Shown here one piece after another: positions 822 through 58,890 of a DNA stretch of 64,000 nt. Numbering within the stretch: position 1 is the stretch's first letter; each line of letters starts with the position of its first letter. The notes beneath the pieces are model-generated. The model saw only the letters and a program-made list of their open reading frames with translations. It was not told the origin of the DNA and ran no database searches. Where the stretch lies: assembly GCA_034231615.1 (NCBI GenBank), contig CM067309.1, forward strand, positions 28,295,661 through 28,359,660, read 5' to 3'. The position numbers were made by a program, and so were the translations under genes. Source of the stretch: Meghimatium bilineatum (Eukaryota; Mollusca; Gastropoda; Stylommatophora; Philomycidae).

Positions 822-890
<69 letters not shown>
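822..890. repeat. (TA)n microsatellite
   Basis: An uninterrupted TA run of about 70 bp, 30 bp upstream of the ATPase start. Copy B has a longer run at 30,484-30,564. A shorter (GT)n tract lies at about 727-748. Confidence 0.95.
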
Positions 891-895
<5 letters not shown>

Positions 896-920
896 CAACA
901 AAAAGAGCTCATTAATAGAA

Positions 921-1535
921 ATGGATACAAGCTGGAAACATCCTTTTACAGCTATGATTGCTGGTCCGACCGGGTGTGGAAAAACTGTTTTTGTGCAAAA
1001 TTTCTTAAAATATGTGCACGAGCTGGTGGATCCGATACCAGAGGAAATTATCTGGTGTTATGGTGCGTGGCAGGTTGCGTATGAAACCATGCCTGGTGTT
1101 AAATTTATTGAAGGACTACCAGACGTGGAGCAATGGAATGGTGATAAACCAGGACTGTTGGTTATTGATGATTTGATGAGTGAAACAGATGCTCGAGTTA
1201 CTAAATTATTCACTAAAGGAAGTCATCATCGGAGTCTGAGCGTGTTGTATATTGTGCAGAATTTGTTTGGTAAAAACAAAGAACACAGAACCATTAGTCT
1301 GAACTCACACTACATTGTACTTTTCAAGAATCCTCGTGATGGGTCACAGATTATACATTTGGCCAAGCAAATGTACCCCGGTCAGAGTAGTTATGTGCAA
1401 GATAGTTTTAAAGACGCAACAGCGGCCCCACATGGTTATTTGTTGATAGATCTCAGACAGGCAACACCAGATCATTTGAGATTGCGGAGTCATATATTTC
1501 CTGGAGAAAACCAAGTCGTATACGTTCCAAAATAA
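921..1535 (+). CDS. Polinton packaging ATPase (FtsK/HerA type), fossil part
   Basis: A 204-residue P-loop ATPase of the kind that Polintons and related viruses use to package DNA into capsids. Walker A is GPTGCGKT (residues 15-22), Walker B is LLVIDDL, and the QNLFGKNKEHRTISLN and NPRDGSQI segments are characteristic of the Polinton family. It starts at MDTSWKH just after the TA tract and is followed by the basic protein two bases after its stop. The frame looks open in both copies. Confidence 0.9.
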   Translation: MDTSWKHPFTAMIAGPTGCGKTVFVQNFLKYVHELVDPIPEEIIWCYGAWQVAYETMPGVKFIEGLPDVEQWNGDKPGLLVIDDLMSETDARVTKLFTKGSHHRSLSVLYIVQNLFGKNKEHRTISLNSHYIVLFKNPRDGSQIIHLAKQMYPGQSSYVQDSFKDATAAPHGYLLIDLRQATPDHLRLRSHIFPGENQVVYVPK

Positions 1536-1537
1536 AA

Positions 1538-1861
1538 ATGACTGACGCTTTGAGACGTCACGGCCCAATGTTAAAAACCCTGTGTCGTGCAAAACCAGCT
1601 GTCGTGAAGAGTATAATAAAAACAGCATCACCGGCTCTCATACGTACCCTGTGTGAATGTTCCCACAATATCTTAAAAGGGCATGTTCGACTCACCAAGC
1701 ATCAGAAGACCCGACTGCAACGGCACAAGACTAATCTCAGACTGCTCACTCGCAAAAAGACTACCGTGAAAAGAAGGAAACATATTCTTCAACAAGGTGG
1801 TTTCATAGGCGCGTTACTGAAACCTGTCCTGAGTGTGTTGGGTAGTCTCTTGGGTGTATAA
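1538..1861 (+). CDS. Polinton small basic core-like protein, fossil part
   Basis: A 107-residue, very Lys/Arg-rich protein ending in a hydrophobic GGFIGALLKPVLSVLGSLLG-type tail. Short basic proteins of this form follow the ATPase in many animal Polintons and resemble adenovirus core/pX-type proteins, so binding of packaged DNA is the likely role. It sits between the ATPase and the next small gene with almost no spacing. The family placement comes from composition, position and the tail motif. Confidence 0.65.
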   Translation: MTDALRRHGPMLKTLCRAKPAVVKSIIKTASPALIRTLCECSHNILKGHVRLTKHQKTRLQRHKTNLRLLTRKKTTVKRRKHILQQGGFIGALLKPVLSVLGSLLGV

Positions 1862-2304
1862 TGGCCAAGAAAATGTTGCTGGTCGATCCACGGGTACTAG
1901 AAACTTTACAGCAAAAATCTACGTACTTTAAAACCTGATAGTTTAACGGATAACATGATCAACAGATGCGCGATGTTTTAGATCGTTCTGATTTATCTAA
2001 CGCTGATAAAGCTAGACTTTACCAACAAACATTACAACAGTATTTGATTCGCCTTGACCAGTACAAAAACAGTCCGTTGGGTTTATTAGACTTCAAACCA
2101 CCTTCTTTGGCACCTGTAGAACCAGCACATAACAAACCAACTCTGACGGTCCCTGTCGAACCACTCCTTAAAACTGATGAACCAGCACCGAAAATTCCAG
2201 ACAAGGTTGAAGTGACTCCCGAACCACCTAAACGTTCGCTCAGGAAGAAAAGGAAAAGTAAAATTCCTACGCCTACCAAAACACCCATGTGGGAATCATG
2301 GTAG
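1861..2304 (+). pseudogene. Polinton small conserved protein region
   Basis: It begins MAKKMLLVDPRVLE and continues into a helical stretch (LSNADKARLYQQTLQQYL), then a Pro/Lys-rich tail with KRSLRKKRKSK. Small proteins with this opening are common beside the core-like gene in Polintons. The function is unknown to me. The region is broken. Confidence 0.55.
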
Positions 2305-3340
2305 ACACAATGTTGTCGCGCCATTACTACAACCCTAAGAAAGCTGGAGCGTATGGTGGTGTTAGTGGTTTACAACGTACCACCAAACTTGAAACAAAAC
2401 AAGTCAAAGACTGGTTATGTCATCAGGATACTTACACTTTACATAAACCTATTCGACGTCGCTTTAAAAGACGTGTAACCATAACAGGTGGTATAGACCA
2501 ACAGTTTCAAGCTGATTTAATTGATCTTACAAAGTTAAGAAAATACAACGATGGATATTCATATTTGGTGACGTGTATAGATGTGTTTAGTAAATTCGCT
2601 TGGGCTGTTCCGATCAAGAACAAAACTGGAAAAGCTTTAGTCGAAGCTGTGCGTAGTATTTTAGAAGAAAGAAAACCAATAAATTTTCAAACCGACAAGG
2701 GTTCGGAATTTACCAATAAAACATTTCTCAAGTTTCTTAAAGACAAGGGTGTTCATTTCTTCACAACTGAAAATGAAGATGTCAAAGCAGCTGTTGTCGA
2801 ACGTTTCAATCGTACATTGAAGGAGAAAATGTGGCGATATTTCACTAAAATCAATAAACCGCGTTATGTAGATGTGATAAACGCCTTGCTTCGAAATTAT
2901 AATTATTCATTTCATACAAGTATTAGGATGGCGCCTGTAGAAGTTAATACGGGTAATCAAGCCCAAGTGTGGAATACGTTATATGGAGAGCGACCAACAG
3001 ACAGAAAAGTATATTTCAATGTTGGTGATAGGGTGAGAATCATGCTAATTAGACACAATTTTAAAAAAGGATATACACCGGCGTGGACAGAAGAACTGTT
3101 TACCGTCAGTCAGATACAACACCTATAACTTATACGATCAAAGATGATGCGGGTGAAGAAGTGAAAGGGTCCTTTTACAAAGAAGAACTTCAAAAAGTTG
3201 GTGACAAAACAACGTTTCGTATCGAAACAGTCCTAGAAGAACGTGGGGCTGGACATCGGAAACAGTATTTAGTCAAGTGGTTCGGCTATAATTCTTCATT
3301 CAATTCATGGGTGTCGGCCAAAGACATTACAAGATACTAA
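2289..3340 (+). pseudogene. Polinton integrase with C-terminal chromodomain
   Basis: A retrovirus-type DDE integrase (rve fold) that inserts the element. The catalytic blocks are visible: QADLIDL, QTDKGSEF and VVERFNRTLKEK, followed by an SH3-like segment. The last third carries a chromodomain (RIETVLEERG, QYLVKWFGYNSSFNSWV), the usual chromatin-targeting tail of Polinton integrases. It overlaps the end of the preceding small gene. Taken as a fossil, the region is broken. Confidence 0.9.
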
Positions 3341-6840: not shown

Positions 6841-7044
6841 TTATATAGAGAGGGGTGTAGTTGAGACATTATCTGCTTGCACCTGTCGTTTTATGTAAAA
6901 GTATGAAAGTGATGCCCTATGTTGTTCGTATGTGTACACAGCTGTCCCTGTCGTCTTAAAACCCAGATTTTTACCCCCACTACTTTGTCTGGTTGTCAGG
7001 ACGTCGGAAAATGTCTTTGCGTCAAATTTGTTTTGGATCTTACT
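6841..7044 (-). pseudogene. Polinton DNA polymerase B, C-terminal tail (cut off by nested transposon)
   Basis: The - strand reads SKIQNKFDAKTFSDVL, TGTAVYTYEQHRASLSYFY and a VSTTPLSI end, the usual C-terminal tail of Polinton PolB. It is separated from the rest of the gene (12,603-16,134) by the 5.55-kb transposon inserted at the TACT at 7,041-7,044. Confidence 0.8.
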
Positions 7045-7084
7045 CACACCTGTTTTTCCTTTCTAAAAATGTTAACTTTTAGTT
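7045..7084 (+). repeat. Left transposon end, 23-spacer RSS-like
   Basis: CACACCT (7,045-7,051), 23 bases, then ACTTTTAGTT (7,075-7,084). The same two blocks occur at the right end in inverted orientation with a 12-base spacer. The heptamer begins CACA like the V(D)J heptamer CACAGTG. The 10-mer does not match the canonical nonamer ACAAAAACC. Confidence 0.7.
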
Positions 7085-7357
7085 CGGCCACACACGAGGC
7101 ATTTCAGCTATTGTAGTCCTGAAGGGGTGTAACAGACCTGACATATTTATTACCCAGCGCTGAATGAAATAATTCGCGTGGAGGTTGGATTTCGCTTCTG
7201 GTTCAAAGATACCGTTTCTCAATTTTGCGAATTTTATACAGCAGCCAGAGTGTGTGCATTTGCAAGCACAACTCAACATTTTCCATCCTCATATTTTTGT
7301 ACAAGTCCTATTAGGTTGTCATTGTTTTTGACCAGTGCACATTCAATATTTATACAG
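7085..7357 (+). other. Transposon 5' region, possible untranslated exon
   Basis: No clear coding. It ends in ATACAG|GTAAAA, a good splice donor at 7,357/7,358, and the next strong acceptor lies just before the transposase ATG. I infer a 5' untranslated first exon here. Confidence 0.4.
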
Positions 7358-8387
7358 GTAAAAAAATTTCGTTATTCTTCATGTTAATTTAGTAGGCCTA
7401 ATATCATTACTTTACATACAGTGTCAAATTTGTTAGATCATCGTTTACCATAAGAATGTACAAATTAAACCTAATATGCCACGATCAAACACTAGTTTAG
7501 CATGTATATCTAGTTAGATCTCATTTTACTTGTGCAACTATGATCGAAATTAGTTAAATTGCGCAATTAGATCATGTAAAAGATTCATTCTTTGTGTAGC
7601 ATTAACGCTACGAACTTGTCTTCATGATAATTTTTCAATTCGTGGTCGGCAAATATAAATCCAAAATAAACCTATAATGCCACGATCAAACACTAGTTTA
7701 GCATGTATATCTAGTTAGATCTCATTTTACTTGTGCAAATATGATCGAAATTAGTTAAATTGCGCAATTAGATCATGTAAAAGATTCATTCTTTGTGTAG
7801 CATTAACGTTACGAACTTGTCTTCATGATAATTTTTCAATTCGTGGTCGGCAAATATAAGTCCAAAATAAACCTAATATGCCACGATCAAACACTAGTTT
7901 AGCATGTATATCTAGTTAGATCTCATTTTACTTGTGCAAATATGATCGAAATTAGTTAAATTGCGCAATTAGATCATGTAAAAGATTCATTCTTTGTGTA
8001 GCATTAACGCTACGAACTTGTCTTCATGATAATTTTTCAATTCGTGGTCGGCAAATATAAGTCCAAAATAAACCTATTATGCCACGATCAAACACTAGTT
8101 TAGCATGTATATCTAGTTAGATCTCATTTTACTTGTGCAAATATGATCAAAATTAGTTAAATTGCGCAATTAGATCATGTAAAAGATTCATTCTTTGTGT
8201 AGCATTAACGCTACGAACTTGTTCTGTGTGATAGTTATCAATCGCGGTTGGATCCCCATAACGTTTGAATAAGTTCGTTGCATGCTACACATACACAGAA
8301 AAGTAATTTACTATTGTAATAAGTATATGTTATACGTTTCTTTTGTGAAAATATGTTAATAATATTTTTAAATTTATTTCAAAACAG
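7358..8387 (+). other. Probable intron of the transposase gene
   Basis: Donor CAG|GTAAAA at 7,357/7,358 and acceptor TTTATTTCAAAACAG|G at 8,387/8,388, directly before the ATG at 8,389. The interior is largely a tandem repeat array. This is sequence-only inference, with no transcript evidence. Confidence 0.5.
7470..8220 (+). repeat. 201-bp tandem repeat, about 3.75 units
   Basis: Units start near 7,470, 7,671, 7,872 and 8,073 with CCTAWTATGCCACGATC and are nearly identical. The last is cut after about 148 bp. Each unit holds the palindrome AATTGCGCAATT and a small stem GTAGCATTAACGCTAC. Copy B has only about 1.75 units. Confidence 0.95.
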
Positions 8388-8388
8388 G

Positions 8389-11043
8389 ATGGATCACTGC
8401 AGTTCACTACACATGCGATTTTTGAATGATTTGTGCAGAATTTGTGTAGGAAGAACATTATCTAAGAAAGATAAAAGGATGCAGAAGAAACCACGGTCCT
8501 GTAGCTTATATCAAAGTGACCTGGCTAGTATTTATGGGATACATATCATGGACGATAGTGAAACAAAACATTCAACCACATTGTGTGTCAAGTGTGTAAT
8601 GCGAAATCATAAACTCAAAATCAACAAGGATAGTAAATCTCTAGCTCGAGCCAAATTGATAGCTACTAACAGTGCCCACATCTGGATGGATTTTAATCCT
8701 AACCTAACTGTTTTAGAATGTTCCGTGTGTAGTCATCATCAAAGTATGAACTGTGGCAGCATAAAGAGAAAGAGAGTTTTTGATAATTCTGATAATGATC
8801 ATGATGTATCTGTGCCTGTGTTATTTCCTGCTACAGAAACAGAGGAAGATATTCTAATGCCAGTGACAGCAAGATTGTCTCCACAACTCACCAATAGTAA
8901 TAACAATCCAACAAATTTAACAGTACCCACAGCTCGCCGTTGTCTTCAATATAATAATGGAATATTTTCCACATTTGCAACAACTGCATATCCACAATGT
9001 AGCTATACCAGCACACCTTCCATATTTACACCTGCATTTGCACATCTTCACTATAACAGCACACCTTCCACATTTACAACACCTGCATATCCACAATGTA
9101 GTTATACCAGCACACCCTCCACATATTTTAGACCTTCAACGCCCAATAACATACACGATTCTGCTACATCTAGCATATATCCTGCAGTTACAACATGTAC
9201 AGTTTCTGAATTCAGAAAGTTAACATCAGACAGCGCCACTTCTCCCATGATGAAACATGACTTTAGTTTTAAAAAATCTATCAGCAAACCTATATCAGAA
9301 CCATTGACAAATAAGGAGGAATTATTACTCACACATCTAATTAGAAGGAAGCTTTACAACAACCCTAATAAACTTTTACGGTGCAAAACAGGAGGACAAC
9401 CTTTAGTGTTTCAAAGAATAATAGTTCCACGAAAACAAACAAATCTAATTGGCACACCAACAAAAAGAAGAAGAACTAATTTGCTATGCAGTGTACGGAA
9501 ACATATTGCAGGTCAGGCCAAAGATTCTTTAGAGAAGCAACACGTTGCTGAACTAAAGAAAATTCCTGCTAGACAACGATATGAAATTTGTGAGAGAGCA
9601 GGAATAAATGTAAAAATAGACATGGACGAGAAAAATGCACTGACCATGAAGGAAGCCACGGGGCTAACATGGAGCCAACTGAGAATCCAGAGGAAGTTCT
9701 TGAAGGAGGCTGGTTTGCATCTACCCCTTGAAAGATGTAAACGAAGTCTGGCAAAGAGTCTCGTGTCTGAACATGTTCAAGTAGAAACAAAAGAACTTAG
9801 AGTAGATAACATGCAAGTTGTATTTCCTTATGTATCAATTGTAGATATTCAGAAGTATGTAGTTAGTATATTAGACAAGCACGACAATTTAGGACAGTTG
9901 ACATGGCACGATAGACACATACCAGACAATGAAATTTGGGTGAAATTTGGAGGAGATCACGGTAAGAGCAGTTTAAAAACATTTTTACAAATAGGTAATA
10001 TAGACATACCTAATTCCAAATTCAATACCACTATGATAGGAATGGCAAAAATTAAAGACACTTATGACAACTTAACAGTTATGATAGCGGATCTTAGGGA
10101 AAACATTAAACAAGTAGAGGGAATAGAGTGGAAAGGGAAAAAGATAGTGACATTTCTGTTTGGGGATTATGACTTCTTATGTAAAGTATATGGATTGTCT
10201 GGAGCTCAAGGCACATTTCCTTGTTTGTGGTGCTTGCAAGAAAAACCAGACATACAGAAACCTCAAACAGTTATTCATGAACGAACACTTGCTATGCTGT
10301 ACACAGATAATCGTAGATTTAGAAAATATGGACTTGAGAGAAAGGAGTACGCAAAGTTGTATCACAATAGTATACATTCCCCATTGTTAGATATTGACAT
10401 TGATAGAGTCTGTCCACCATACTTACACATTCTTCTTGGTATAGTTCACAAACACCATACACTCTTAGAGATTGAAGCAGACACTATAGATGCAGCAATA
10501 GAACAGGATACCAGTGAAAACAGAAATAAAAAAGCAGAAACACTGTCCAGATATGGTAATAACTGGAAACTCTTTGAATGCAAGACTTCCGAAATGGAGC
10601 TCTTGCAAGGATGTGTTGTGTTTGAAACCGATCCTGTTCAAAAGGAAGTGTTCCAGACAAAACTGTCAGCATGTGAGGACACTTTGCATAACTTGCTTTA
10701 TGTTCCACTTACTACCAGGTCTGGTCCAGTGTGTTATAAACTAGACGAAATACTACACAAACATCATATTAACATACAATCATTTCACAGTAGATCTTTC
10801 AATGGCAACCACTGCAACAAATATCTCACAACACCAGTATACACTGACTTAACCAAGACAATTGTAGCAACAACAACCGAATATACATCCACATATTCAA
10901 TTATTGAGAAAGCATTCAAAGTTCGTAACCTGTTTGATGCTCTGAACAATGCATACAGTGATATACACAATTTAGTATCTCATTCACATCCCCTTACACA
11001 CAGTCTATCTCAGATATACAAGCATGCATTAAGACATACATGA
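8389..11043 (+). CDS. Transposase with RAG1-like N-terminal zinc region
   Basis: I chose the ATG at 8,389 because a splice acceptor lies right before it; upstream in-frame codons look intronic. The protein is 884 residues to the stop. Residues 16-19 CRIC, 66-69 CVKC and 111-114 CSVC followed by a KRKR cluster have the same order, spacing and context as the N-terminal zinc region of RAG1 (FCRIC, FCHNC, C..C, GLKRKS). Residues 190-250 are Pro/Thr/Ser-rich with a duplicated AYPQCSYTSTPS. The core has GGDHGKSS (D523), FGDYDF (D593/D595), SGAQGTFPCLWC (CxxC 612-615) and PPYLHILLG with later His, the layout of RAG1-like DDE transposases. The third acidic residue lies in the next frame (11,040-11,327). 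The role is cut-and-paste transposition in the nucleus. Confidence 0.8.
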   Translation: MDHCSSLHMRFLNDLCRICVGRTLSKKDKRMQKKPRSCSLYQSDLASIYGIHIMDDSETKHSTTLCVKCVMRNHKLKINKDSKSLARAKLIATNSAHIWMDFNPNLTVLECSVCSHHQSMNCGSIKRKRVFDNSDNDHDVSVPVLFPATETEEDILMPVTARLSPQLTNSNNNPTNLTVPTARRCLQYNNGIFSTFATTAYPQCSYTSTPSIFTPAFAHLHYNSTPSTFTTPAYPQCSYTSTPSTYFRPSTPNNIHDSATSSIYPAVTTCTVSEFRKLTSDSATSPMMKHDFSFKKSISKPISEPLTNKEELLLTHLIRRKLYNNPNKLLRCKTGGQPLVFQRIIVPRKQTNLIGTPTKRRRTNLLCSVRKHIAGQAKDSLEKQHVAELKKIPARQRYEICERAGINVKIDMDEKNALTMKEATGLTWSQLRIQRKFLKEAGLHLPLERCKRSLAKSLVSEHVQVETKELRVDNMQVVFPYVSIVDIQKYVVSILDKHDNLGQLTWHDRHIPDNEIWVKFGGDHGKSSLKTFLQIGNIDIPNSKFNTTMIGMAKIKDTYDNLTVMIADLRENIKQVEGIEWKGKKIVTFLFGDYDFLCKVYGLSGAQGTFPCLWCLQEKPDIQKPQTVIHERTLAMLYTDNRRFRKYGLERKEYAKLYHNSIHSPLLDIDIDRVCPPYLHILLGIVHKHHTLLEIEADTIDAAIEQDTSENRNKKAETLSRYGNNWKLFECKTSEMELLQGCVVFETDPVQKEVFQTKLSACEDTLHNLLYVPLTTRSGPVCYKLDEILHKHHINIQSFHSRSFNGNHCNKYLTTPVYTDLTKTIVATTTEYTSTYSIIEKAFKVRNLFDALNNAYSDIHNLVSHSHPLTHSLSQIYKHALRHT

Positions 11044-11327
11044 CACTGTACAGAAGATTCTTTCCTCAAAAAGTTATACCCAAACAGCACATTTTAGAAT
11101 TTCATTGTGTGCCATGGCTAGGCAGATACAGATTTGGTCTAGGATTTCATGGAGAGCAGGGCGGAGAGCTAATGCACTCTACAATAGGTAAAATAGAGCA
11201 AAGAGCATGGGCTATAAGGAATGAAACAAAACAAATGAAGTTTATAATGGAGACACATCTTCTTCAATTATCTCCTGATATGCAGGCCTCTCCAGCTTCT
11301 GGTCCCAAGAAGTCCAAGTCAAATTAG
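11040..11327 (+). pseudogene. Transposase C-terminal segment with catalytic Glu candidate
   Basis: It overlaps the stop of the main frame by ATGA and lies in the -1 frame. It reads MTLYRRFFPQKVIPKQHIL, then GLGFHGEQGGELMHSTIG, where the Glu of GGELMHS fits the last catalytic residue (compare the EGNESGNK block of RAG1). The frame is already transposase-like before its ATG (SDIQACIKTYM), so a frameshift, not a separate gene, is the simplest reading. Programmed -1 frameshifting cannot be excluded, since copy B has the same arrangement. Confidence 0.6.
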
Positions 11328-11529
11328 TTATAGTGGAATTAGGTTTGAATCATATTATACACAGATCACATGGCATATTATATGCATTTACAGTACGACA
11401 CATACACATCCCACACAATGACATCTACACATCCTACAGGAGGACGTTTACACAACTCACTGAATGACATCACACATTAGCTAATTAGTGGTTACTAAAT
11501 GTTCTAGTTCCGTTTTTTCATCAAAACTG
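11328..11529. other. Transposon 3' untranslated stretch
   Basis: I see no gene. AT-rich, with short repeats of ACACATCC and ATGACATC. Confidence 0.4.
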
Positions 11530-11790
11530 TTTTTCCAAAACAATTGTTTTTCAACCCTAAAAATCTTGATTTTCTGATTTTAATTTTTGCTATAAGTTGT
11601 CCTTTTCTACTCTTCCTGCATGATTGAAAACTTGTACATTACTTTTCTTGGCTGTCCATGCCTGGAAAAATGTTCATCATTCTTCTTAAAAACCGCATAT
11701 CAGATGACTCCACCTTATCCTGCACACTTAATTTTGTTTACTGTCCATGTTTCTCTTCCACAAAGAAGGATAGGCTGAATATTATATATT
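11530..11790 (-). mobile_element. LINE fragment nested in the transposon
   Basis: The - strand shows decayed LINE C-terminal sequence: ETWTVNK, then WTAKKSNVQVFNHAGR, a segment that follows the reverse transcriptase in many invertebrate LINEs. Several frame changes are visible, so it is old or was mutated before capture. Confidence 0.5.
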
Positions 11791-11873
11791 ATATTATATA
11801 TATTTACTATATATAATCATATATGATCATGTATCTCGATCTCCAGTATTATGTATCCAGATCGTTGTTACAT

Positions 11874-11883
11874 AATAAATAAA
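11874..11883 (+). terminator. Overlapping AATAAATAAA polyadenylation signals
   Basis: Two overlapping AATAAA hexamers in the 3' third of the transposon, about 550 bp after the transposase C-terminal segment. A plausible poly(A) signal only. Confidence 0.3.
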
Positions 11884-12118
11884 GATTGAGTTATACTCAT
11901 CTTTAAGATATTGGATGCAAGAAATGACAATTTACGGAATTTAATTTTGTTTTAAATAAAAATCATAAAGCAAAATATTCTGCAATCATTGTGTTCAGTT
12001 TGAAAGTGAAATATATTTTGTTGGTTGAGTGAAATGCTATTGCGAAACTGTGTGTGCATTTAACGTTATTATACTATACACTGTATTCGTTGCCACAAGA
12101 GAAGGAACTAAACAAAGT

Positions 12119-12420
12119 TAAGAGGTTCTAAAAACACTTAATATGAAGAAAGAATTACTAAGAGAAATCAAGATTAGACAAATAAAATATTTTGGACACA
12201 TTAAAGAAATGACACCTTATTGAAGACCTTACTTGAAGGTAAAGTCAAAGGGAAACGAGCACGAGGTAGACAGAGATACGCGATACGTGTGGGAGAATAA
12301 CATCACAAGATGGACAGGGTACAGTCTAGCAGAGTGCATCACCAAAACAAGAGGCAGGGGATGTTGAGATCTGTTGCAGCCAACCTTTGTTGCAGAAATG
12401 GTACTAGATGATGTCTACCT
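12119..12420 (+). mobile_element. LINE 3' tail, same family as 20,433-21,650
   Basis: Shares AAGAAAGAATTACTAAGAG, the TTATTGAAGACCTTACTTGA block and a terminal AGATGATG-type tail with the LINE at 20,433-21,650, the LINE at 58,245-58,890 and the copy B counterparts. This is a 5'-truncated insertion of the last 300 bp of that family inside the RAG1-like transposon. Confidence 0.7.
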
Positions 12421-12440
12421 GCCAAGTTTCTGGCTTGCCT

Positions 12441-12543
12441 CCCCTGATTTCACCAGGGGACAATTGAAGGGTTTCTCTTATTTCCCTTGAATTATCTAAT
12501 TGCAATTGAATTGACAGTGGGCGTGAACAGTGAACACGCCCAC
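12441..12543. repeat. Subterminal hairpins of the transposon
   Basis: CCCCTG/CAGGGG (12,441-12,446 with 12,454-12,459) and a perfect 9-bp stem GTGGGCGTG/CACGCCCAC (12,517-12,525 with 12,535-12,543) lie within 160 bp of the right end. They may be transposase-binding or structural sites. Confidence 0.6.
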
Positions 12544-12569
12544 CTCTGGTTTATTGATATCTCCTTAAA

Positions 12570-12598
12570 AACTAAAAGTCCATCCAGTCTCAGGTGTG
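12570..12598 (-). repeat. Right transposon end, 12-spacer RSS-like
   Basis: Read inward on the - strand: CACACCT (12,592-12,598), 12 bases, then ACTTTTAGTT (12,570-12,579). It is followed outside by TACT, matching the left flank. Confidence 0.7.
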
Positions 12599-12602
12599 TA
12601 CT

Positions 12603-15600
12603 TAGACCCTTTGTCGATGTCTTGTCGTAGGGCCCAAAACAGTGATATGTCTTTGCTGCATAGTGAGATCATCCCTATACCAGTATATTCGAGCTTGAAT
12701 AGACCTGGCTTTCGCTTATCGAATAGCCTAGCCTCGATGCATTGGGGACAGTCTTTAGGTGGGTCGAGTAAGAGGTCTATATGAGGCTGACAGGTTTCTC
12801 TAGGGAACCACTGATCGTAGACTCGTCGATATTCGGCCCTCATGCTAGGCTTAATGACGTCATGTAGACTGTCCGCAGATAGGGCTAAATAGAGAGAGAC
12901 CGTATCCATCTCTGTCACCTCAAAATCACTCCTGTCCACGAATCTATCGAGGAAGTCATAGTAAAACTCAAGCATCCTAAGCTTGGCATATTGGTACACG
13001 AAAAAACCAATCTGGATGGGTAAATCCCACTTCGTGTGCTGATACCGTGACTCAACCTCGTATAGATCAGGTCCAACCTCGACCATCTTCCTAAAGTAGG
13101 GGGTATTGACCAACTTGTCGGTCGCTGTAGGGGCCACATACACCACTTTAACATGTTTAGCTTTATAGGTGAGTGTTTTTCCATAAGCCGCATTCCCAAG
13201 TAATTTCATAGTATCACTTGTAATAGAAGCGGCTGGGGAGAGATCACCCTTACGACGAGCTCTAGTAACAGTATCACCAAACTGGCTGAACCATGCTACA
13301 GGTTCATACTCTATAACCTGATAGATGTATGTAACCACTAGACCGTGAGCCAGATACCAATTTATCAAGGGTGTGGCCAACAGGATTTTGTTACCAATAT
13401 AGCTCACAATAAGTCTTCGACGAGGTGTGGTCAATAGCTTGTTATCATTTGCGTATTTCTCAATCAGTGGGCCAATATCTGCCCGACTGACCTCAATATT
13501 TTTAAAGATGGGTGTCATCTCTGAAAAATACGCTTTCAAAGCCTCTGGGACATGAATATCACATTCAACAAGCCCAAAACACGAACCATCAACAACAGCT
13601 GCAATAATTTGGGTTTGTGTGGGTTTCGTGTATTTAGCGTAGGATGGTTTTTGCCTCGTAAATGCTGTTGCTAGAAAGTCTCTGACACGTTTCTCCGTCT
13701 TTTTTAATGCCTGCCACTCACACTCCCAACACTCGACAATACCGCCACCACACGTGTTAGCTATCGTTTGGCTGGTTCTACATGTAGCCAAATACAAATC
13801 AGCAAGCGGTTTTTTGTTGACTGGGTTGATGATATGGTCTTTGGTGATTGGACAGTTGGGGTGCCCGTGAAACATACAACCATGAAATTGGAAGGCCGTG
13901 CGTGTCATAGTACAATAGCCATCCACTGGAATATGAGCATCACCAACCCGGTGTTCCTTACCGTTGAATTGGGTGATAAGATCTGTGTTTCTCGTGTGAG
14001 CCATCCAAGCTAACCACTCCCTACATTGAATGGTGTACAGATTTCGCCTGTGCTGTTTAAAGCCATCGTCGTGTGTTCGGGTGATTGTAAAATCTGTGGG
14101 CATCTTCTGCATTAATGCCCACAAATAAAGAGCATTGGCGTCATACCCCTTAATGCTCTTAACCACCTTACCACCGCGTATGTATGTTTTATTCACCTCA
14201 TGGTGTCGATGAAAAATAATAGATGGCCCACCGGTGATGTTGTGACGTATGATGTTGTGTAGGTCTTTTTCATATGGGGCGCATAACGTAAAGACTATAC
14301 CGCGTGGTAGGGTTTTGAAAAGGTACCTTAGGGTGATACCCGGAACAGAGATGGCGTCCTTAAACATATCAATCCCAAGCGCAGCATAGAATTTAACCTG
14401 GCTGGAAAGGGCCTTCAACATAGGAGCGACATCTTTGTTGTTGTACCACTCGAGAAAATCCTGCAATTTCGTCATTTTATGTTCCCGACAGATTTTTTGG
14501 CAGTACGCATATTCTTCAACAGAAATGTTGGAATTTTTAAGTTTTAAGTAGAACGCCGAGTGTGGAGGTAAACAGGGTTCATTCAACTGCGCCATGTCTG
14601 TTACATACTCGTAACAGAAAAAACCTTTCTGTTCGACTACCTTGTAAGCTGCTAGATACTTACTGTAACTAAAACCTGGTGCAAGGTAATTGACAATATC
14701 CAAAAACTTTAATTCTTTCGTGGATATGCACATAAAATTATTATTTCGCTTGACAGCGAAGTCGAAGGCGCCATCTTCGCCGGGGTTTTTAAAAATACCG
14801 AGCGAAATATGGTTTAATCAAATTAACATCATACTTCCCTGAGTTAAACCCAATCACAGGCAGTTGCGCAAGATAGCCCTCTAGTCTACACAACTCTAAA
14901 AAATGCTCACCATCACGCAAGACCTTGAGATGATCGGCAAAACGTTCTTTTATGAGCTTTCCAGCGGCATCAGCGATTTCCACTAAATACTTCAGCACAC
15001 TATTGATCAGTTTCTGAGGGTCTCCTGTGCTGACGAAACAGACTGGGTCTTTCTTATCAGGGACATTGGATGCTACAGAACACGACATGGGGATGTGTTT
15101 TGCTATGTAGGTCGTGTTACTCGTTGACTTTGTAGCACAATCAGACGAGTCAAAATAGCATTCAAAGTCAAATGTAGCCCTGTAAGGATATATATAACCC
15201 GTATCTACCAACTCAAGTGGTAGAATTTTTGCCAGCTCATCAAAGACAGTGTCGTATGGGATGTAGACTCCACCTGGGTAGACCCCCGTGCTGATACCAC
15301 CCTTGCACGTTTTCTCGTGGCGGGTGAGCTTAAAGTTATCTTTCTAGACTTTCCCACATTTGGGACACCCAAAGGAGTGGCTAACTTGATCAATACTAGT
15401 AATGTACATAAAGTGCTCTTTATGTTGTAGGAGGTACATAATATTAGGAAATGTGCTACCGCTGCGGACTATTGGCACCAGGACATAAAATGCGTATACG
15501 TCAATATTAAGCTGGTAACAGTTCTCTAAGCTTGGAAGGATATCAAGCGTTACACCAGAAAAGGCAGTTTGTGGTTCTGTGTCTTGGTATGTGTACCAGT

Positions 15601-20432: not shown

Positions 20433-21650
20433 TCATCATTAAGTGCCGTCTCCGCAACGAAGGTTGTCTGCAAAGTATCTCCATCATCTCCTGTCTCTTG
20501 TCTTGGTGGTGCACTGTGCTAGACTGTAACATGTCTATCATATGATGTTACTCTCCCACTTGTATCTCTGCCTACCTCTTGCTCGCTTCCCTTTCACTTT
20601 ACCCTCAAGTAAGGTCTTCAATAAGGTGTCCTGTCTTTTAATATGTCCAAAGTATTTGATTTGCCTGATCTTTATTTCTCTTAGTAGTTCTTTCTTCATT
20701 ATTAAGTGTCTTTAGCACCTCTTTATTTGTTTTCTTCTCTTTCCATGAAGTTCTCCGTATTCTTCTATATACCCACATCTCAAAGGCATCAATTTTGTCT
20801 TCTAATTGTTTTTTTAGTGTCCATGTTTCTGAGCCATACATTAATATGGAATAGATGTAGCATTTTATAATTCTCATTTTTAACTTGTTTGTAATTTGTT
20901 TAGATATTAATAATTTCCTCATGTCATTGAAGGTACTTTTAGTCATTCCTATTCTCCTTTTAACTTCTGTTTCACATCTGCTATCATTTTTGACTATGTG
21001 TCCAAGTATTTGATACTGTTTTACTTTTTGTAGTTTCTCTACCTGTATGTTTATGTTTACCTGTTCTTCTGTGTCTTTGCTGATTATCATGGTTTTTGTT
21101 CATATTCAATACTTGATTTATTGACTTGATCTTTATTGATATTTATTGACTTTGAGTCTTTGTAGTTCATGTTCACTTTCTGCCAAAATAACAGTGCTAT
21201 CTGCATATCTAAGGGTGTTTATTATTTTCCCATTGATCTTGAGTCCTGGTATTTCTTCTATATTTTAAAAGATATTCTCTGTGTAGATATTAAATAGGCT
21301 TGGTGATAAAATGCATCCTTGTCTTACCCCTATTCTTATTTCTATGTATGGAGAGTAGCTGTTTTCACACCTTATTGATGCAGTTTGTTCCCTGTATATA
21401 TTTCTAATCAGTCTGATGTCTTTTCCATCTATGCCTATTTCTTGAAGACATGTGATTAATTTTTCATGTTGGACTCTGTCAACGGCCTTGCTGTAGTCTA
21501 TTAAGCAAATATAGATACTTTTTTGGACTTCTATATATTTATCTATCACTAGCCGGATACTCAGTATAGCTTCTCTGGTTCTTGTTTCTCCTAAAACCGA
21601 ATTGTTCTTCACCGACCTCCATGTCTATCTTTGTTCTTAATTCTTTCATG
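20433..21650 (-). mobile_element. LINE Y, 5'-truncated, inserted into LINE X
   Basis: The - strand encodes RT blocks NNSVLGETRTREAIL, ICLIDYSKAVDRVQHEKL, GVRQGCILSPSLFNIYTENIF, then ILMYGSETWTLKKQ and RRIRRTSWKEKKTNKEVLK. Its 3' end is the AATGATGATGATG-type tail at 20,433. There are a few frame breaks, among them around 21,090-21,265. The same family occurs at 12,119-12,420 and 58,245-58,890. Confidence 0.8.
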
Positions 21651-36722: not shown

Positions 36723-37147
36723 CACACCTGTTTTTCCTTTCTAAAAATGTTAACTTTTAGTTCGGCCACACACGAGGCATTTCAGCTATTGTAGTCCTGA
36801 AGGGGTGTAACAGACCTGACATATTTATTACCCAGCGCTGAATGAAATAATTCGCGTGGAGGCTTGGATTTCGCTTCTGGTTCAAAGATACCGTTTCTCA
36901 ATTTTGCGAATTTTATACAGCAGCCAGAGTGTGTGCATTTGCAAGCACAACTCAACATTTTCCATCCTCATATTTTTGTACAAGTCCTATTAGGTTGTCA
37001 TTGTTTTTGACCAGTGCACATTCAATATTTATACAGGTAAAAAAAATTCGTTATTCTTCATGTTAATTTAGTAGGTCTAATATCATTACTTTACATACAG
37101 TGTCAAATTTGTTAGATCATCGTTTACCATAAGAATGTACAAATTAA

Positions 37148-37498
37148 ACCTAATATGCCACGATCAAACACTAGTTTAGCATGTATATCTAGTTAGATCT
37201 CATTTTACTTGTGCAAATATGATCGAAATTAGTTAAATTGCGCAATTAGATCATGTAAAAGATTCATTCTTTGTGTAGCATTAACGCTACGAACTTGTCT
37301 TCATGATAATTTTTCAATTCGTGGTCGGCAAATATAAGTCCAAAATAAACCTATTATGCCACGATCAAACACTAGTTTAGCATGTATATCTAGTTAGATC
37401 TCATTTTACTTGTGCAAATATGATCAAAATTAGTTAAATTGCGCAATTAGATCATGTAAAAGATTCATTCTTTGTGTAGCATTAACGCTACGAACTTG
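37148..37498 (+). repeat. 201-bp tandem repeat, about 1.75 units
   Basis: Short allele of the array at 7,470-8,220. It lies in the probable intron 37,037-37,664. Confidence 0.95.
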
Positions 37499-37665
37499 TT
37501 CTGTGTGATAGTTATCAATCGCGGTTGGATCCCCATAACGTTTGAATAAGTTCGTTGCATGCTACACATACACAGAAAAGTAATTTACTATTGTAATAAG
37601 TATATGTTATACGTTTCTTTTGTGAAAATATGTTAATAATATTTTTAAATTTATTTCAAAACAGG

Positions 37666-40320
37666 ATGGATCACTGCAGTTCACTACACATGCGATTTTT
37701 GAATGATTTGTGCAGAATTTGTGTAGGAAGAACATTATCTAAGAAAGATAAAAGGATGCAGAAGAAACCACGGTCCTGTAGCTTATATCAAAGTGACCTG
37801 GCTAGTATTTATGGGATACATATCATGGACGATAGTGAAACAAAACATTCAACCACATTGTGTGTCAAGTGTGTAATGCGAAATCATAAACTCAAAATCA
37901 ACAAGGATAGTAAATCTCTAGCTCGAGCCAAATTGATAGCTACTAACAGTGCCCACATCTGGATGGATTTTAATCCTAACCTAACTGTTTTAGAATGTTC
38001 CGTGTGTAGTCATCATCAAAGTATGAACTGTGGCAGCATAAAGAGAAAGAGAGTTTTTGATAATTCTGATAATGATCATGATGTATCTGTGCCTGTGTTA
38101 TTTCCTGCTACAGAAACAGAGGAAGATATTCTAATGCCAGTGACAGCAAGATTGTCTCCACAACTCACCAATAGTAATAACAATCCAACAAATTTAACAG
38201 TACCCACAGCTCGCCGTTGTCTTCAATATAATAATGGAATATTTTCCACATTTGCAACAACTGCATATCCACAATGTAGCTATACCAGCACACCTTCCAT
38301 ATTTACACCTGCATTTGCACATCTTCACTATAACAGCACACCTTCCACATTTACAACACCTGCATATCCACAATGTAGTTATACCAGCACACCCTCCACA
38401 TATTTTAGACCTTCAACGCCCAATAACATACACGATTCTGCTACATCTAGCATATATCCTGCAGTTACAACATGTACAGTTTCTGAATTCAGAAAGTTAA
38501 CATCAGAAAGCGCCACTTCTCCCATGATGAAACATGACTTTAGTTTTAAAAAATCTATCAGCAAACCTATATCAGAACCATTGACAAATAAGGAGGAATT
38601 ATTACTCACACATCTAATTAGAAGGAAGCTTTACAACAACCCTAATAAACTTTTACGGTGCAAAACAGGAGGACAACCTTTAGTGTTTCAAAGAATAATA
38701 GTTCCACGAAAACAAACAAATCTAATTGGCACACCAACAAAAAGAAGAAGAACTAATTTGCTATGCAGTGTACGGAAACATATTGCAGGTCAGGCCAAAG
38801 ATTCTTTAGAGAAGCAACACGTTGCTGAACTAAAGAAAATTCCTGCTAGACAACGATATGAAATTTGTGAGAGAGCAGGAATAAATGTAAAAATAGACAT
38901 GGACGAGAAAAATGCACTGACCATGAAGGAAGCCACGGGGCTAACATGGAGCCAACTGAGAATCCAGAGGAAGTTCTTGAAGGAGGCTGGTTTGCATCTA
39001 CCCCTTGAAAGATGTAAACGAAGTCTGGCAAAGAGTCTCGTGTCTGAACATGTTCAAGTAGAAACAAAAGAACTTAGAGTAGATAACATGCAAGTTGTAT
39101 TTCCTTATGTATCAATTGTAGATATTCAGAAGTATGTAGTTAGTATATTAGACAAGCACGACAATTTAGGACAGTTGACATGGCACGATAGACACATACC
39201 AGACAATGAAATTTGGGTGAAATTTGGAGGAGATCACGGTAAGAGCAGTTTAAAAACATTTTTACAAATAGGTAATATAGACAGACCTAATTCCAAATTC
39301 AATACCACTATGATAGGAATGGCAAAAATTAAAGACACTTATGACAACTTAACAGTTATGATAGCGGATCTTAGGGAAAACATTAAACAAGTAGAGGGAA
39401 TAGAGTGGAAAGGGAAAAAGATAGTGACATTTCTGTTTGGGGATTATGACTTCTTATGTAAAGTATATGGATTGTCTGGAGCTCAAGGCACATTTCCTTG
39501 TTTGTGGTGCTTGCAAGAAAAACCAGACATACAGAAACCTCAAACAGTTATTCATGAACGAACACTTGCTATGCTGTACACAGATAATCGTAGATTTAGA
39601 AAATATGGACTTGAGAGAAAGGAGTACGCAAAGTTTTATCACAATAGTATACATTCCCCATTGTTAGATATTGACATTGATAGAGTCTGTCCACCATACT
39701 TACACATTCTTCTTGGTATAGTTCACAAACACCATACACTCTTAGAGATTGAAGCAGACACTATAGATGCAGCAATAGAACAGGATACCAGTGAAAACAG
39801 AAATAAAAAAGCAGAAACACTGTCCAGATATGGTAATAACTGGAAACTCTTTGAATGCAAGACTTCCGAAATGGAGCTCTTGCAAGGATGTGTTGTGTTT
39901 GAAACCGATCCTGTTCAAAAGGAAGTGTTCCAGACAAAACTGTCAGCATGTGAGGACACTTTGCATAACTTGCTTTATGTTCCACTTACTACCAGGTCTG
40001 GTCCAGTGTGTTATAAACTAGACGAAATACTACACAAACATCATATTAACATACAATCATTTCACAGTAGATCTTTCAATGGCAACCACTGCAACAAATA
40101 TCTCACAACACCAGTATACACTGACTTAACCAAGACAATTGTAGCAACAACAACCGAATATACATCCACATATTCAATTATTGAGAAAGCATTCAAAGTT
40201 CGTAACCTGTTTGATGCTCTGAACAATGCATACAGTGATATACACAATTTAGTATCTCATTCACATCCCCTTACACACAGTCTATCTCAGATATACAAGC
40301 ATGCATTAAGACATACATGA
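37666..40320 (+). CDS. Transposase with RAG1-like N-terminus, copy B
   Basis: Same 884-residue protein as 8,389-11,043 with three substitutions noticed (D281E, I540R and L657F, counted from the ATG). All Cys pairs and acidic motifs are kept. The splice acceptor before the ATG is kept too. Confidence 0.8.
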   Translation: MDHCSSLHMRFLNDLCRICVGRTLSKKDKRMQKKPRSCSLYQSDLASIYGIHIMDDSETKHSTTLCVKCVMRNHKLKINKDSKSLARAKLIATNSAHIWMDFNPNLTVLECSVCSHHQSMNCGSIKRKRVFDNSDNDHDVSVPVLFPATETEEDILMPVTARLSPQLTNSNNNPTNLTVPTARRCLQYNNGIFSTFATTAYPQCSYTSTPSIFTPAFAHLHYNSTPSTFTTPAYPQCSYTSTPSTYFRPSTPNNIHDSATSSIYPAVTTCTVSEFRKLTSESATSPMMKHDFSFKKSISKPISEPLTNKEELLLTHLIRRKLYNNPNKLLRCKTGGQPLVFQRIIVPRKQTNLIGTPTKRRRTNLLCSVRKHIAGQAKDSLEKQHVAELKKIPARQRYEICERAGINVKIDMDEKNALTMKEATGLTWSQLRIQRKFLKEAGLHLPLERCKRSLAKSLVSEHVQVETKELRVDNMQVVFPYVSIVDIQKYVVSILDKHDNLGQLTWHDRHIPDNEIWVKFGGDHGKSSLKTFLQIGNIDRPNSKFNTTMIGMAKIKDTYDNLTVMIADLRENIKQVEGIEWKGKKIVTFLFGDYDFLCKVYGLSGAQGTFPCLWCLQEKPDIQKPQTVIHERTLAMLYTDNRRFRKYGLERKEYAKFYHNSIHSPLLDIDIDRVCPPYLHILLGIVHKHHTLLEIEADTIDAAIEQDTSENRNKKAETLSRYGNNWKLFECKTSEMELLQGCVVFETDPVQKEVFQTKLSACEDTLHNLLYVPLTTRSGPVCYKLDEILHKHHINIQSFHSRSFNGNHCNKYLTTPVYTDLTKTIVATTTEYTSTYSIIEKAFKVRNLFDALNNAYSDIHNLVSHSHPLTHSLSQIYKHALRHT

Positions 40321-40604
40321 CACTGTACAGAAGATTCTTTCCTCAAAAAGTTATACCCAAACAGCACATTTTAGAATTTCATTGTGTGCCATGGCTAGAC
40401 AGATACAGATTTGGTCTAGGATTTCATGGAGAGCAGGGCGGAGAGTTAATGCACTCTACAATAGGTAAAATAGAGCAAAGAGCATGGGCTATAAGGAATG
40501 AAACAAAACAAATGAAGTTTATAATGGAGACACATCTTCTTCAATTATCTCCTGATATGCAGGCCTCTCCAGCTTCTGGTCCCAAGAAGTCCAAGTCAAA
40601 TTAG
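40317..40604 (+). pseudogene. Transposase C-terminal segment, copy B
   Basis: Same -1 frame arrangement with ATGA overlap as in copy A, with one residue change (G to D in VPWLxRYRF). The Glu of GGELMHS is kept. Confidence 0.6.
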
Positions 40605-40806
40605 TTATAGTGGAATTAGGTTTGAATCATATTATACACAGATCACATGGCATATTATATGCATTTACAGTACGACACATACACATCCCACACAATGACA
40701 TCTACACATTCTACAGGAGGACGTTTACACAACTCACTGAATGACATCACACATTAGCTAATTAGTGGTTACTAAATGTTCTAGTTCCGTTTTTTCATCA
40801 AAACTG

Positions 40807-41067
40807 TTTTTCCAAAACAATTGTTTTTCAACCCTAAAAATCTTGATTTTCTGATTTTAATTTTTGCTATAAGTTGTCCTTTTCTACTCTTCCTGCATGA
40901 TTGAAAACTTGTACATTACTTTTCTTGGCTGTCCATGCCTGGAAAAATGTTCATCATTCTTCTTAAAAACCGCATATCAGATGACTCCACCTTATCCTGC
41001 ACACTTAATTTTGTTTACTGTCCATGTTTCTCTTCCACAAAGAAGGATAGGCTGAATATTATATATT
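40807..41067 (-). mobile_element. LINE fragment, copy B
   Basis: Counterpart of 11,530-11,790. Confidence 0.5.
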
Positions 41068-41395
41068 ATATTATATATATTTACTATATATAATCATATA
41101 TGATCATGTATCTCGATCTCCAGTATTATGTATCCAGATCGTTGTTACATAATAAATAAAGATTGAGTTATACTCATCTTTAAGATATTGGATGCAAGAA
41201 ATGACAATTTACGGAATTTAATTTTGTTTTAAAAAAAAATCATAAAGCAAAATATTCTGCAATCATTGTGTTCAGTTTGAAAGTGAAATATATTTTGTTG
41301 GTTGAGTGAAATGCTATTGCGAAACTGTGTGTGCATTTAACGTTATTATACTATACACTGTATTCGTTGCCACAAGAGAAGGAACTAAACAAAGT

Positions 41396-41697
41396 TAAGA
41401 GGTTCTAAAAACACTTAATATGAAGAAAGAATTACTAAGAGAAATCAAGATTAGACAAATAAAATATTTTGGACACATTAAAGAAATGACACCTTATTGA
41501 AGACCTTACTTGAAGGTAAAGTCAAAGGGAAACGAGCACGAGGTAGACAGAGATACGCGATACGTGTGGGAGAATAACATCACAAGATGGACAGGGTACA
41601 GTCTAGCAGAGTGCATCACCAAAACAAGAGGCAGGGGATGTTGAGATCTGTTGCAGCCAACCTTTGTTGCAGAAATGGTACTAGATGATGTCTACCT
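41396..41697 (+). mobile_element. LINE Y-family 3' tail, copy B
   Basis: Counterpart of 12,119-12,420. Confidence 0.7.
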
Positions 41698-41717
41698 GCC
41701 AAGTTTCTGGCTTGCCT

Positions 41718-41820
41718 CCCCTGATTTCACCAGGGGACAATTGAAGGGTTTCTCTTATTTCCCTTGAATTATCTAATTGCAATTGAATTGACAGTGGGCG
41801 TGAACAGTGAACACGCCCAC
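41718..41820. repeat. Subterminal hairpins, copy B
   Basis: Counterpart of 12,441-12,543, both stems kept. Confidence 0.6.
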
Positions 41821-41879
41821 CTCTGGTTTATTGATATCTCCTTAAAAACTAAAAGTCCATCCAGTCTCAGGTGTGTACT

Positions 41880-49803: not shown

Positions 49804-51021
49804 TCATCATTAAGTGCCGTCTCCGCAACGTAGGTTGTCTGCAAAGTATCTCCATCATCTCCTGTCTCTTGTCTTGGTGGTGCACTGTGCTAGACTGTAA
49901 CATGTCTATCATATGATGTTACTCTCCCACTTGTATCTCTGCCTACCTCTTGCTCGCTTCCCTTTCACTTTACCCTCAAGTAAGGTCTTCAATAAGGTGT
50001 CCTGTCTTTTAATATGTCCAAAGTATTTGATTTGCCTGATCTTTATTTCTCTTAGTAGTTCTTTCTTCATTATTAAGTGTCTTTAGCACCTCTTTATTTG
50101 TTTTCTTCTCTTTCCATGAAGTTCTCCGTATTCTTCTATATACCCACATCTCAAAGGCATCAATTTTGTCTTCTAATTGTTTTTTTAGTGTCCATGTTTC
50201 TGAGCCATACATTAATATGGAATAGATGTAGCATTTTATAATTCTCATTTTTAACTTGTTTGTAATTTTTTTAGATATTAATAATTTCCTCATGTCATTG
50301 AAGGTACTTTTAGTCATTCCTATTCTCCTTTTAACTTCTGTTTCACATCTGCTATCATTTTTGACTATGTGTCCAAGTATTTGATACTGTTTTACTTTTT
50401 GTAGTTTCTCTACCTGTATGTTTATGTTTACCTGTTCTTCTGTGTCTTTGCTGATTATCATGGTTTTTGTTCATATTCAATACTTGATTTATTGACTTGA
50501 TCTTTATTGATATTTATTGACTTTGAGTCTTTGTAGTTCATGTTCACTTTCTGCCAAAATAACAGTGCTATCTGCATATCTAAGGGTGTTTATTATTTTC
50601 CCATTGATCTTGAGTCCTGGTATTTCTTCTATATTTTAAAAGATATTCTCTGTGTAGATATTAAATAGGCTTGGTGATAAAATGCATCCTTGTCTTACCC
50701 CTATTCTTATTTCTATGTATGGAGAGTAGCTGTTTTCACACCTTATTGATGCAGTTTGTTCCCTGTATATATTTCTAATCAGTCTGATGTCTTTTCCATC
50801 TATGCCTATTTCTTGAAGACATGTGATCAATTTTTCATGTTGGACTCTGTCAACGGCCTTGCTGTAGTCTATTAAGCAAATATAGATACTTTTTTGGACT
50901 TCTATATATTTATCTATCACTAGCCGGTTACTCAGTATAGCTTCTCTGGTTCTTGTTTTTCCTAAAACCGAATTGTTCTTCACCGACCTCCATGTCTATC
51001 TTTGTTCTTAATTCTTTCATG
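49804..51021 (-). mobile_element. LINE Y inserted in LINE X, copy B
   Basis: Counterpart of 20,433-21,650, with the same RT blocks and a few residue changes. Confidence 0.8.
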
Positions 51022-55860: not shown

Positions 55861-57443
<1,583 letters not shown>

Positions 57444-58244: not shown

Positions 58245-58890
58245 ACTAAGTTCAATCATCATCAACATCAAGTACCGTCTCCGCAAAGAAAGTTGGCTGC
58301 AACGGATCTGCAATATCCCCCAACTCTTATCTTGGTGGTACACTCTGCTAGACTGTAACCTGTCCATCTGTGATGTTACTCTCCCACTTGTATTTCTGCC
58401 TCACTCTTGCTCGCTTCCCTTTGACTTTACCCTCAAGTAAGGTCTTCAATAAGGTTCATGTCTTTTAATGTGTCCAATATATTTTTTTTGTCTGATCTTT
58501 ATTTCTCTTAGTAGTTCTTTCTTCATATTGATGTCTTTAGCACCTCTTTATTTGTTCTCTTTCTATGGCGTTCTCCCTATTCTTCTATATTCCCACATCT
58601 CAAAGGGATCAATTATGTCTTCTAATTGTTTAGTGTCCATGTTTCTGAGCCACACATTAATATAAAATAGATGTAGCATTTTATAATTCTCATTTTTATC
58701 TTGTTTGTAATTTGTTTAGAAGTTAATATTTTCATCATGTCATCGAAGGTACTTTTAGCCATTCCTATTCTCATTTTAACTTCTGTTTCACATCTACCGT
58801 CATTTGTGACTATGTGTCCAAGATATTGATAATGTTTTACTAGTTGTAGTTTCTCTCCATGTATGTTTACGTTTAGCTCTTGTTCTTCTC
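58245..58890 (-). mobile_element. LINE Y-family 3' fragment
   Basis: Collinear with the 3' 650 bp of LINE Y (20,433-21,090), starting at the same ATGATGATG-type tail, with many differences and small deletions. An older insertion of the same family. Confidence 0.75.

Follow-up and report, generated by a model that had tools for sequence, protein, structure and literature searches.

The window analysed here is a stretch of 64,000 nucleotides from the genome of the gastropod Meghimatium bilineatum (assembly GCA_034231615.1, contig CM067309.1, positions 28,295,661 to 28,359,660 of the forward strand). It hosts, at positions 7045-12598 of the plus strand, a Chapaev-like DNA transposon of 5,554 bp, hereafter copy A, delimited by both ends and a 4-bp target duplication, and sharing its boundaries with 20 further insertions. 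The duplication is represented by matching TACT flanks at 7041-7044 and 12599-12602. The uninterrupted terminal inverted repeat, CACACCTG, measures 8 bp (7045-7052 on the plus and 12591-12598 on the minus strand), and includes the heptamer CACACCT (7045-7051 at the left, 12598-12592 at the right end). Inward from the left tip, the heptamer is separated by a 23-bp spacer (7052-7074, plus strand) from the 10-mer ACTTTTAGTT (7075-7084, plus strand); inward from the right tip, a 12-bp spacer (12580-12591, minus strand) precedes an exact copy of the same 10-mer (12570-12579, minus strand). By spacer we mean the bases between CACACCT and the inner 10-mer; CACACCTG corresponds to the heptamer plus a G, and the rest of the spacer denotes the spacer without its first base. 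The first-pass annotation of this DNA had read the two ends in this way, and likened them to the signals of V(D)J recombination; re-reading both ends, bordered by the TACT duplication, confirmed the arrangement. A second copy, copy B (36723-41875, plus strand), resides within a duplication of ~29.6 kb. Its ends and flanks are identical to those of copy A, and copy B is therefore, as had been anticipated, a duplicate providing no independent support. Besides copy B, no further copies of the transposon ends were found in the window.

Genome-wide searches covered 1.61 Gb in 32 contigs, and all the DNA evidence derives from this one genome. The left 256 bp of the element, used as query, retrieved 461 candidates; the 40 which were scored were all 98-100% identical. 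Of the 38 loci located outside the window 20 were read, and these, counting the window copy, make up the 21 copies referred to as family 1. Five older members found via the protein (L073, L074, L075, L077 and L078) contributed four left and four right ends, raising the sample to 25 ends of each type. The spacing is 23 bp in 25/25 left ends and 12 bp in 25/25 right ends, and the right end is present in all the 20 fetched family-1 loci. The asymmetric 12/23 pair supposed for the element is thus a fixed property of the family, and is shared by many related ends elsewhere in the genome. The first eight bases never vary in the 25 left and 25 right ends. The left 10-mer reads ACATTTAGTT in 15 ends, ACTTTTAGTT in 8 and ACTCTTAGTT in 2, the right 10-mer ACTTTTAGTT in 19, ACTTTTAGAT in 5 and ACTTTAAGTT in one. 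The presence of the same 10-mer at both ends, correctly reported for the window copy, is not the family norm: the two 10-mers of one copy are identical in only 5 of 21 copies, and ACATTTAGTT, in which one base is changed, is the usual left version (15/21). Variable sites at the left end are 2/10 in the 10-mer and 5/22 in the rest of the spacer; at the right end they are 2/10 and 6/11, respectively.

The genome was searched for the exact pattern CACACCTG-N(10-24)-ACTTTTAGTT, corresponding to spacers of 11-25 bp, a search which itself demanded the exact 10-mer; the same pattern reversed served as control. The pattern has 518 matches in the genome, the control one. Spacers of 13-21 bp account for 5 matches (control 1), spacers of 22-25 bp for 127 (control 0). 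By subtraction, 386 matches have spacers of 11 or 12 bp, and a spacer of 11 bp occurs in none of the 100 matches listed. Among these 100 listed of the 518, 72 spacers measure 12 bp, 23 measure 23 bp, three 22 bp, one 20 bp and one 25 bp. Similarly, among the 100 listed of the 127 matches with spacers of 22-25 bp, the spacer measures 23 bp in 87, 22 bp in 12, and 25 bp in a single one. Four of the five off-spacing matches (G000:C3:11262477, C3:58856839, C3:58856927 and C11:48078071) start with CACACCTGTGTGG, and resemble a different repeat with ACTTTTAGTT downstream. In collections of viral and prokaryotic sequences the pattern, with spacers of 11-24 bp, has 40 matches, 5 at 12, 3 at 23 and 26 at 13-21; with their scattered spacers, these matches are a chance control. 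The spacers taken from the genomic matches listed include 34 distinct sequences of the 12-type and 14 of the 23-type, with a mean pairwise identity of 67% (minimum 33%) and 63% (minimum 39%), respectively. Convergent pairs within 12 kb among the matches listed are six, four of them 23/12, two 22/12 and none 12/12, and no convergent 23-23 pair was found among the listed matches with spacers of 22-25 bp. The two 22/12 elements are L079 (706 bp, duplication CTCT/CTCT) and L080 (819 bp, flanks AGTG/AGTA), and the 22-bp form looks like the product of a one-base loss from a 23-bp relative. Both ends were located in 30 elements, which include the 21 family-1 copies, L074, L075 and L077, the pair L079 and L080, and four elements known by coordinates only; 28 of them are 23/12 and two 22/12.

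A sister family, represented by L076, shares ~86% identity through most of its coding part, and 69% through part of the 5' region. Its left end is an exact CACACCT-23-ACTTTTAGTT. In comparison with family 1, the tip is kept in 8/8 and the 10-mer in 10/10 positions, the rest of the spacer in 10-12/22, and the next 20 bases in 6/20. It had been proposed to look at whether, across copies, the 10-mer and the 12/23 spacing are conserved while the spacer varies. The outcome was positive: spacing is fixed, spacers diverge, and L076 keeps the whole 10-mer.

Copy A carries an 884-aa transposase frame (frame 1; 8389-11043, plus strand), which matches DUF1280 and has, by family profile, a RAG1-like N-terminal region. 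The last part of the transposase resides in another frame (10962-11327, plus strand), and includes the H4H motif and a candidate catalytic E; the frame break is the same in copies A and B. For Chapaev transposons of the CMC group (Kapitonov and Jurka 2007), PMC4079192 and PMC4411706 report CAC...GTG termini, target duplications of 3-4 bp, and a RAG1-like (Chapa) N-terminus; the C2C, LH and H4H motifs are given for their transposases in PMC4079192. All these traits are found here. Of 21 insertions, 20 have a perfect 4-bp duplication, the exception being L065; the duplication is perfect also in L074, L075, L077 and L079, and 3/4 in L080. The termini, as said, are invariant, and conform to 5'-CAC...GTG-3'. 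The motifs correspond in L049, a nearly complete genomic copy encoding 959 aa to the first stop, to C612/C615, L679-H680 and H901/H906. Residues C612, C615, L679 and H680 are invariant across five aligned proteins, and so are D523 and D593, which together with the GEQGGE motif of L049 are candidates for the catalytic triad. The relatives P0001-P0004 of the window transposase have the same core.

The RAG1-like N-terminus ascribed to the transposase by the first-pass annotation is recognizable at the level of the family. A profile of five proteins matched, among solved structures, the RAG1 N-terminus (21wb_A, E 5.4e-4 in A3, 3.8e-4 in A7); one of the five is P0004, a lancelet homologue in which Pfam detects the RAG1 importin-binding domain (PF12560, E 2.3e-10). 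The assignment of a Chapa domain derives from this profile and from P0004. The window protein and L049, searched singly against solved structures up to E 10, gave no RAG1 match, and the Pfam RAG1 domain was not detected in the window protein or in P0001-P0003. In the profile searches of solved structures, which compare sequence profiles and not folds, the match was confined to the N-terminus, and none to the RAG1 catalytic core was found up to E 10. By its termini, its 4-bp duplication, the transposase motifs and the N-terminus seen by profile, the element is a transposon of the Chapaev superfamily. Many internally deleted copies are spread through the genome. The 20 family-1 copies vary in length from 2,307 to 8,483 bp, and 18 of them are missing the last transposase part; among the matches listed, 6 of 52 transposase frames cover query residues 1-993 without a stop. 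No second long frame was found in the element, where introns are possible and a RAG2-directed search was not made. Relatives of the transposase were not found in protein scans of public viral and prokaryotic collections, and phage records gave no match.

Other sequences contribute to the make-up of the element. A left subterminal block, GGGGTGTAACAGACCTGACA (7124-7143, plus strand), is conserved between families; it lies ~80-99 bases inward of the left tip, and is not part of the 12/23 signal. In the alignment of seven left ends from several families (the L074 row, which begins with flank, is offset 39 bases outward) its invariant columns read GG.G....A.AGA..TGACA. The left part of copy A hosts four near-identical 201-bp tandem repeats (7458-8222, plus strand), fewer in copy B. 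A fragment of another dispersed repeat lies near the right end (12110-12413), and is found, 82-83% identical, also at 20434-20732, 49805-50103 and 58263-58556. In L077 (4680-6000) and L078 (4919-5299), in transposase-strand coordinates, the 3' part is occupied by a large array of 23-bp repeats. As to the surroundings, copy A is inserted in a Maverick/Polinton-like element (825-3128 and 12565-15343 in the window), with frames for a packaging-ATPase-like protein (PF02456, E 2.5e-5) and an integrase (PF00665, E 3.4e-15). Minus-strand frames, split by the transposon insertion, resemble DNA polymerase B by eye, and had no Pfam match up to 0.01. Between 2-22483 and 29672-51852, repeat pairs set 29.3-29.7 kb apart, 98-100% identical among those listed, show that provirus-like DNA, including the transposon, occurs twice in tandem. 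A fragment of a Mutator-like transposase (PF20700, E 1.2e-35) resides at 62363-63322, and inverted repeats (709 bp, 96%) at 53197-57443 surround a frame whose GIY-YIG match does not reach the curated cut-off.

Chapaev-type DDE transposases cut next to CAC, and insert the element with a staggered cut. The anatomy of the element, its constant spacing, the duplication of 4 bp, and the maintenance of tip and 10-mer along with varying spacers are directly observed. Taken together, the data probably describe a cut-and-paste Chapaev transposon with bipartite, asymmetric end signals, in which the inner 10-mer lies 12 bp inward of the tip motif at the 3' end and 23 bp inward of it at the 5' end. According to this view, the cleavage-proximal CACACCTG would be contacted by the catalytic part of the DDE transposase, and the inner 10-mer ACTTTTAGTT would be held by a second DNA-binding part of the enzyme. 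The 11-bp difference, corresponding to approximately one helical turn, would place both contacts on the same face of the DNA, and make the two ends distinguishable. One 12-end and one 23-end would then be brought together, cut beside CAC, and inserted with a 4-bp stagger. Such pairing would match the use of 12/23 signals by RAG, the motifs being different.

Several observations weigh against this interpretation. The left 10-mer tolerates changes (ACATTTAGTT in 15/25, ACTCTTAGTT in 2/25 ends), and in family 1 it is not clearly less variable than the spacer, the contrast being found at the right end only. Since the 20 family-1 loci had been picked by left-end similarity (98-100%), their shared left spacing in part reflects common descent. 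Genome-wide counts measure related copies and not independent events. Since internally deleted derivatives retain both kinds of end from their parent element, the lack of 12/12 and 23/23 elements is weak evidence for a pairing rule. The right end of L076 was not found, homology stopping near an AT repeat. A more distant transposase relative (30-55% amino-acid identity) is known from four copies, L069-L072, which are 86-94% alike over common stretches; no transposon ends could be recognized in them, no CAC ends were seen, and the end points differ; they are possibly relics or a duplicated gene family. No partner of the old end L084 was found within the 2.6 kb examined. A functional 12/23 rule is a proposal, more probable than its alternatives. 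The main reason for caution comes from the structure of the spacers. In 11 of 13 spacer sequences an A-rich inverted half-site is located near position 12, and the 23-end may thus be a double site.

According to this alternative, an A/T-tract site would lie ~12 bp inward of either tip, as ACTTTTAGTT at the right end and as its inverted A-rich counterpart in the left spacer; the left 10-mer at 23 would form the other arm of a palindromic double site. The two ends would then differ in having one site versus two, and not in 12 versus 23. In copy A the half-site, CTAAAAAT (7063-7070, minus strand), matches CTAAAAGT in 7/8 bases. Among the 14 distinct 23-type spacers, positions 1, 6, 13, 16 and 18 are invariant, three of which fall in the region of the half-site, and the segment at about positions 12-21 resembles the 10-mer read backwards (CTAAAAAT, CAAAAAGT, ATAAAAGT). 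When 13 spacer sequences, several of them of the same spacer type, were scored against CTAAAAGT, the best match lay at position 12-14 in 11. Nine of the 13 reach 7/8 bases (shuffle P 0.007-0.029 for those nine), b22a and c2 reach 6/8, and five (b1, b2, b22b, c1 and c3) have perfect arms, AAAAGT-nn-ACTTTT. However, two spacers followed by an exact outer 10-mer match the half-site poorly: L076 reaches 6/8 at position 10 (P 0.18), and the 25-bp type 5/8 (P 0.68). The distance of the half-site from the tip also moves by 2 bp between types. Spacer c1 also carries a direct near-copy (7/8, P 0.011), indicating that near-matches rich in A/T are not unusual among the spacers. In addition, all the 13 spacers had been picked by the exact outer 10-mer, or come from families having one. 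A double site is possible, and a less probable explanation than a 12/23 pair.

CACTA-type elements are known for subterminal repeats, and the 10-mers could be ordinary repeats of this sort, the distances of 12 and 23 being fixed only by inheritance from a single ancestral element, and playing no part in synapsis. The families compared are indeed related, and reside in one genome; moreover, the further conserved block at ~80-99 bp from the left tip fits such a picture. Yet, spacers have diverged to a minimum identity of 33% (12-type) and 39% (23-type) while length and 10-mer stayed unchanged, though the exact 10-mer was a condition of the search, and the sole deviations from 23 among the 100 listed of the 127 matches with spacers of 22-25 bp are the 12 spacers of 22 bp and the single one of 25 bp. 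Unlike what is seen in arrays of subterminal repeats, the outer 400 bp at either end of the window element hold no additional match to the 10-mer, even when two mismatches are allowed. We regard this explanation as unlikely. That the 10-mer recurs at both AT-rich ends by chance, an event which dinucleotide shuffles, computed before demanding the 12 and 23 spacing, made improbable already prior to the genome search (0.0033 within the first 45 bp, 0.0124 within 100 bp), is ruled out by the 518 genome-wide matches found against one for the reversed control, in line with the first-pass annotation, which had held it to be unlikely.

Whether the 12/23 design was inherited, along with that of V(D)J signals and of some Transib elements, from an ancestor which Chapaev, Transib and RAG share is a separate question, and none of the other explanations requires it. 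Kapitonov and Koonin (PMC4411706) assign Chapaev to the Transib superfamily as one of its clades, report the Chapa domain in RAG1-type proteins, and infer that Chapa and RING were fused to the core in the common ancestor. The family profile described above matches the RAG1 N-terminus. As reported in PMC8355894, 12/23 ends occur in Transib5 of Drosophila, and in Transib2 and N1-N3 of Anopheles. These elements share with the Meghimatium transposon the CAC tip and the 12/23 asymmetry, but have a 5-bp duplication, which is 4 bp here, another inner motif, and a transposase which lacks the N-terminal region of RAG1. V(D)J signals are likewise made of a tip, 12 or 23 bp, and an inner motif. Their first five spacer positions, which contact RAG, are the best conserved (PMC8289069). 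Similarly, three positions (1, 5 and 6) do not vary among the 34 distinct 12-type spacers, while 2 and 4 show a strong bias, and 3 is mostly A/G (G-A-A/G-A-C-T); among later positions, only 9 is above 1 bit. The 12/23 asymmetry, found in 25/25 left and 25/25 right ends and in the genome-wide matches, is the same. In contrast, the heptamer is CACACCT and not CACAGTG, so that only CAC and the spacing are in common; the inner motif is ACTTTTAGTT and not the nonamer ACAAAAACC, from which the first-pass annotation had already distinguished it; the duplication is 4 bp instead of 5 bp; and the element has no second long frame, in a scan not aimed at RAG2. The profile searches of solved structures showed no sequence match to the RAG1 catalytic core, which may also count against a direct link to V(D)J signals, as does the A-rich inverted half-site at ~12 in the 23-end.

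ProtoRAG of lancelets has asymmetric bipartite ends with fixed spacer lengths, and its asymmetric pairs are preferred in assays, as described in PMC8289069; according to the same source, it differs in the 27/31 spacing, in the TR5 motif GCCATCTTG, and in encoding RAG1L and RAG2L. Most Transib ends are described as symmetric (PMC8289069), and, V(D)J signals apart, 12/23 asymmetry is reported only for some Transib elements, invertebrate RAG-like transposons being without it (PMC8355894). The RAG-like complexes of invertebrates have been proposed to depend on the terminal 15-17 bp (PMC7204232). N-RAG-TP of Aplysia (Panchin and Moroz 2008, as cited in PMC8355894 and PMC2996935) is, like the element described here, an invertebrate transposon encoding a protein similar to the N-terminal part of RAG1. 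The bipartite 12/23 ends set the Meghimatium element apart from the Chapaev transposons described in the sources cited. In the open literature, Repbase and most subscription papers being outside the search, no account of a nonamer in Chapaev was found, and none of the titles and abstract starts listed mentions a 12/23 design in this group. Provisionally, 12/23 ends have therefore not been previously described in Chapaev. Homology of the design with V(D)J signals seems improbable on present evidence, and it is equally doubtful that the 12/23 rule is ancient within the wider Chapaev-Transib-RAG group, and older than RAG or the few Transib elements which exhibit it.

If this were true, vertebrate signals would have inherited, and not invented, the 12/23 asymmetry, and an active-looking Chapaev lineage would have kept it with an inner motif of its own. 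A Chapaev lineage in which 12-type ends number in the hundreds, and those of the 22/23-type more than 100, has a bearing on where the 12/23 rule came from. With some transposase frames free of stops over query residues 1-993, and no second long frame, the lineage may provide a system to ask whether a transposase alone enforces 12/23 pairing, and would also allow one to ask whether the asymmetry was inherited or arose by convergence.

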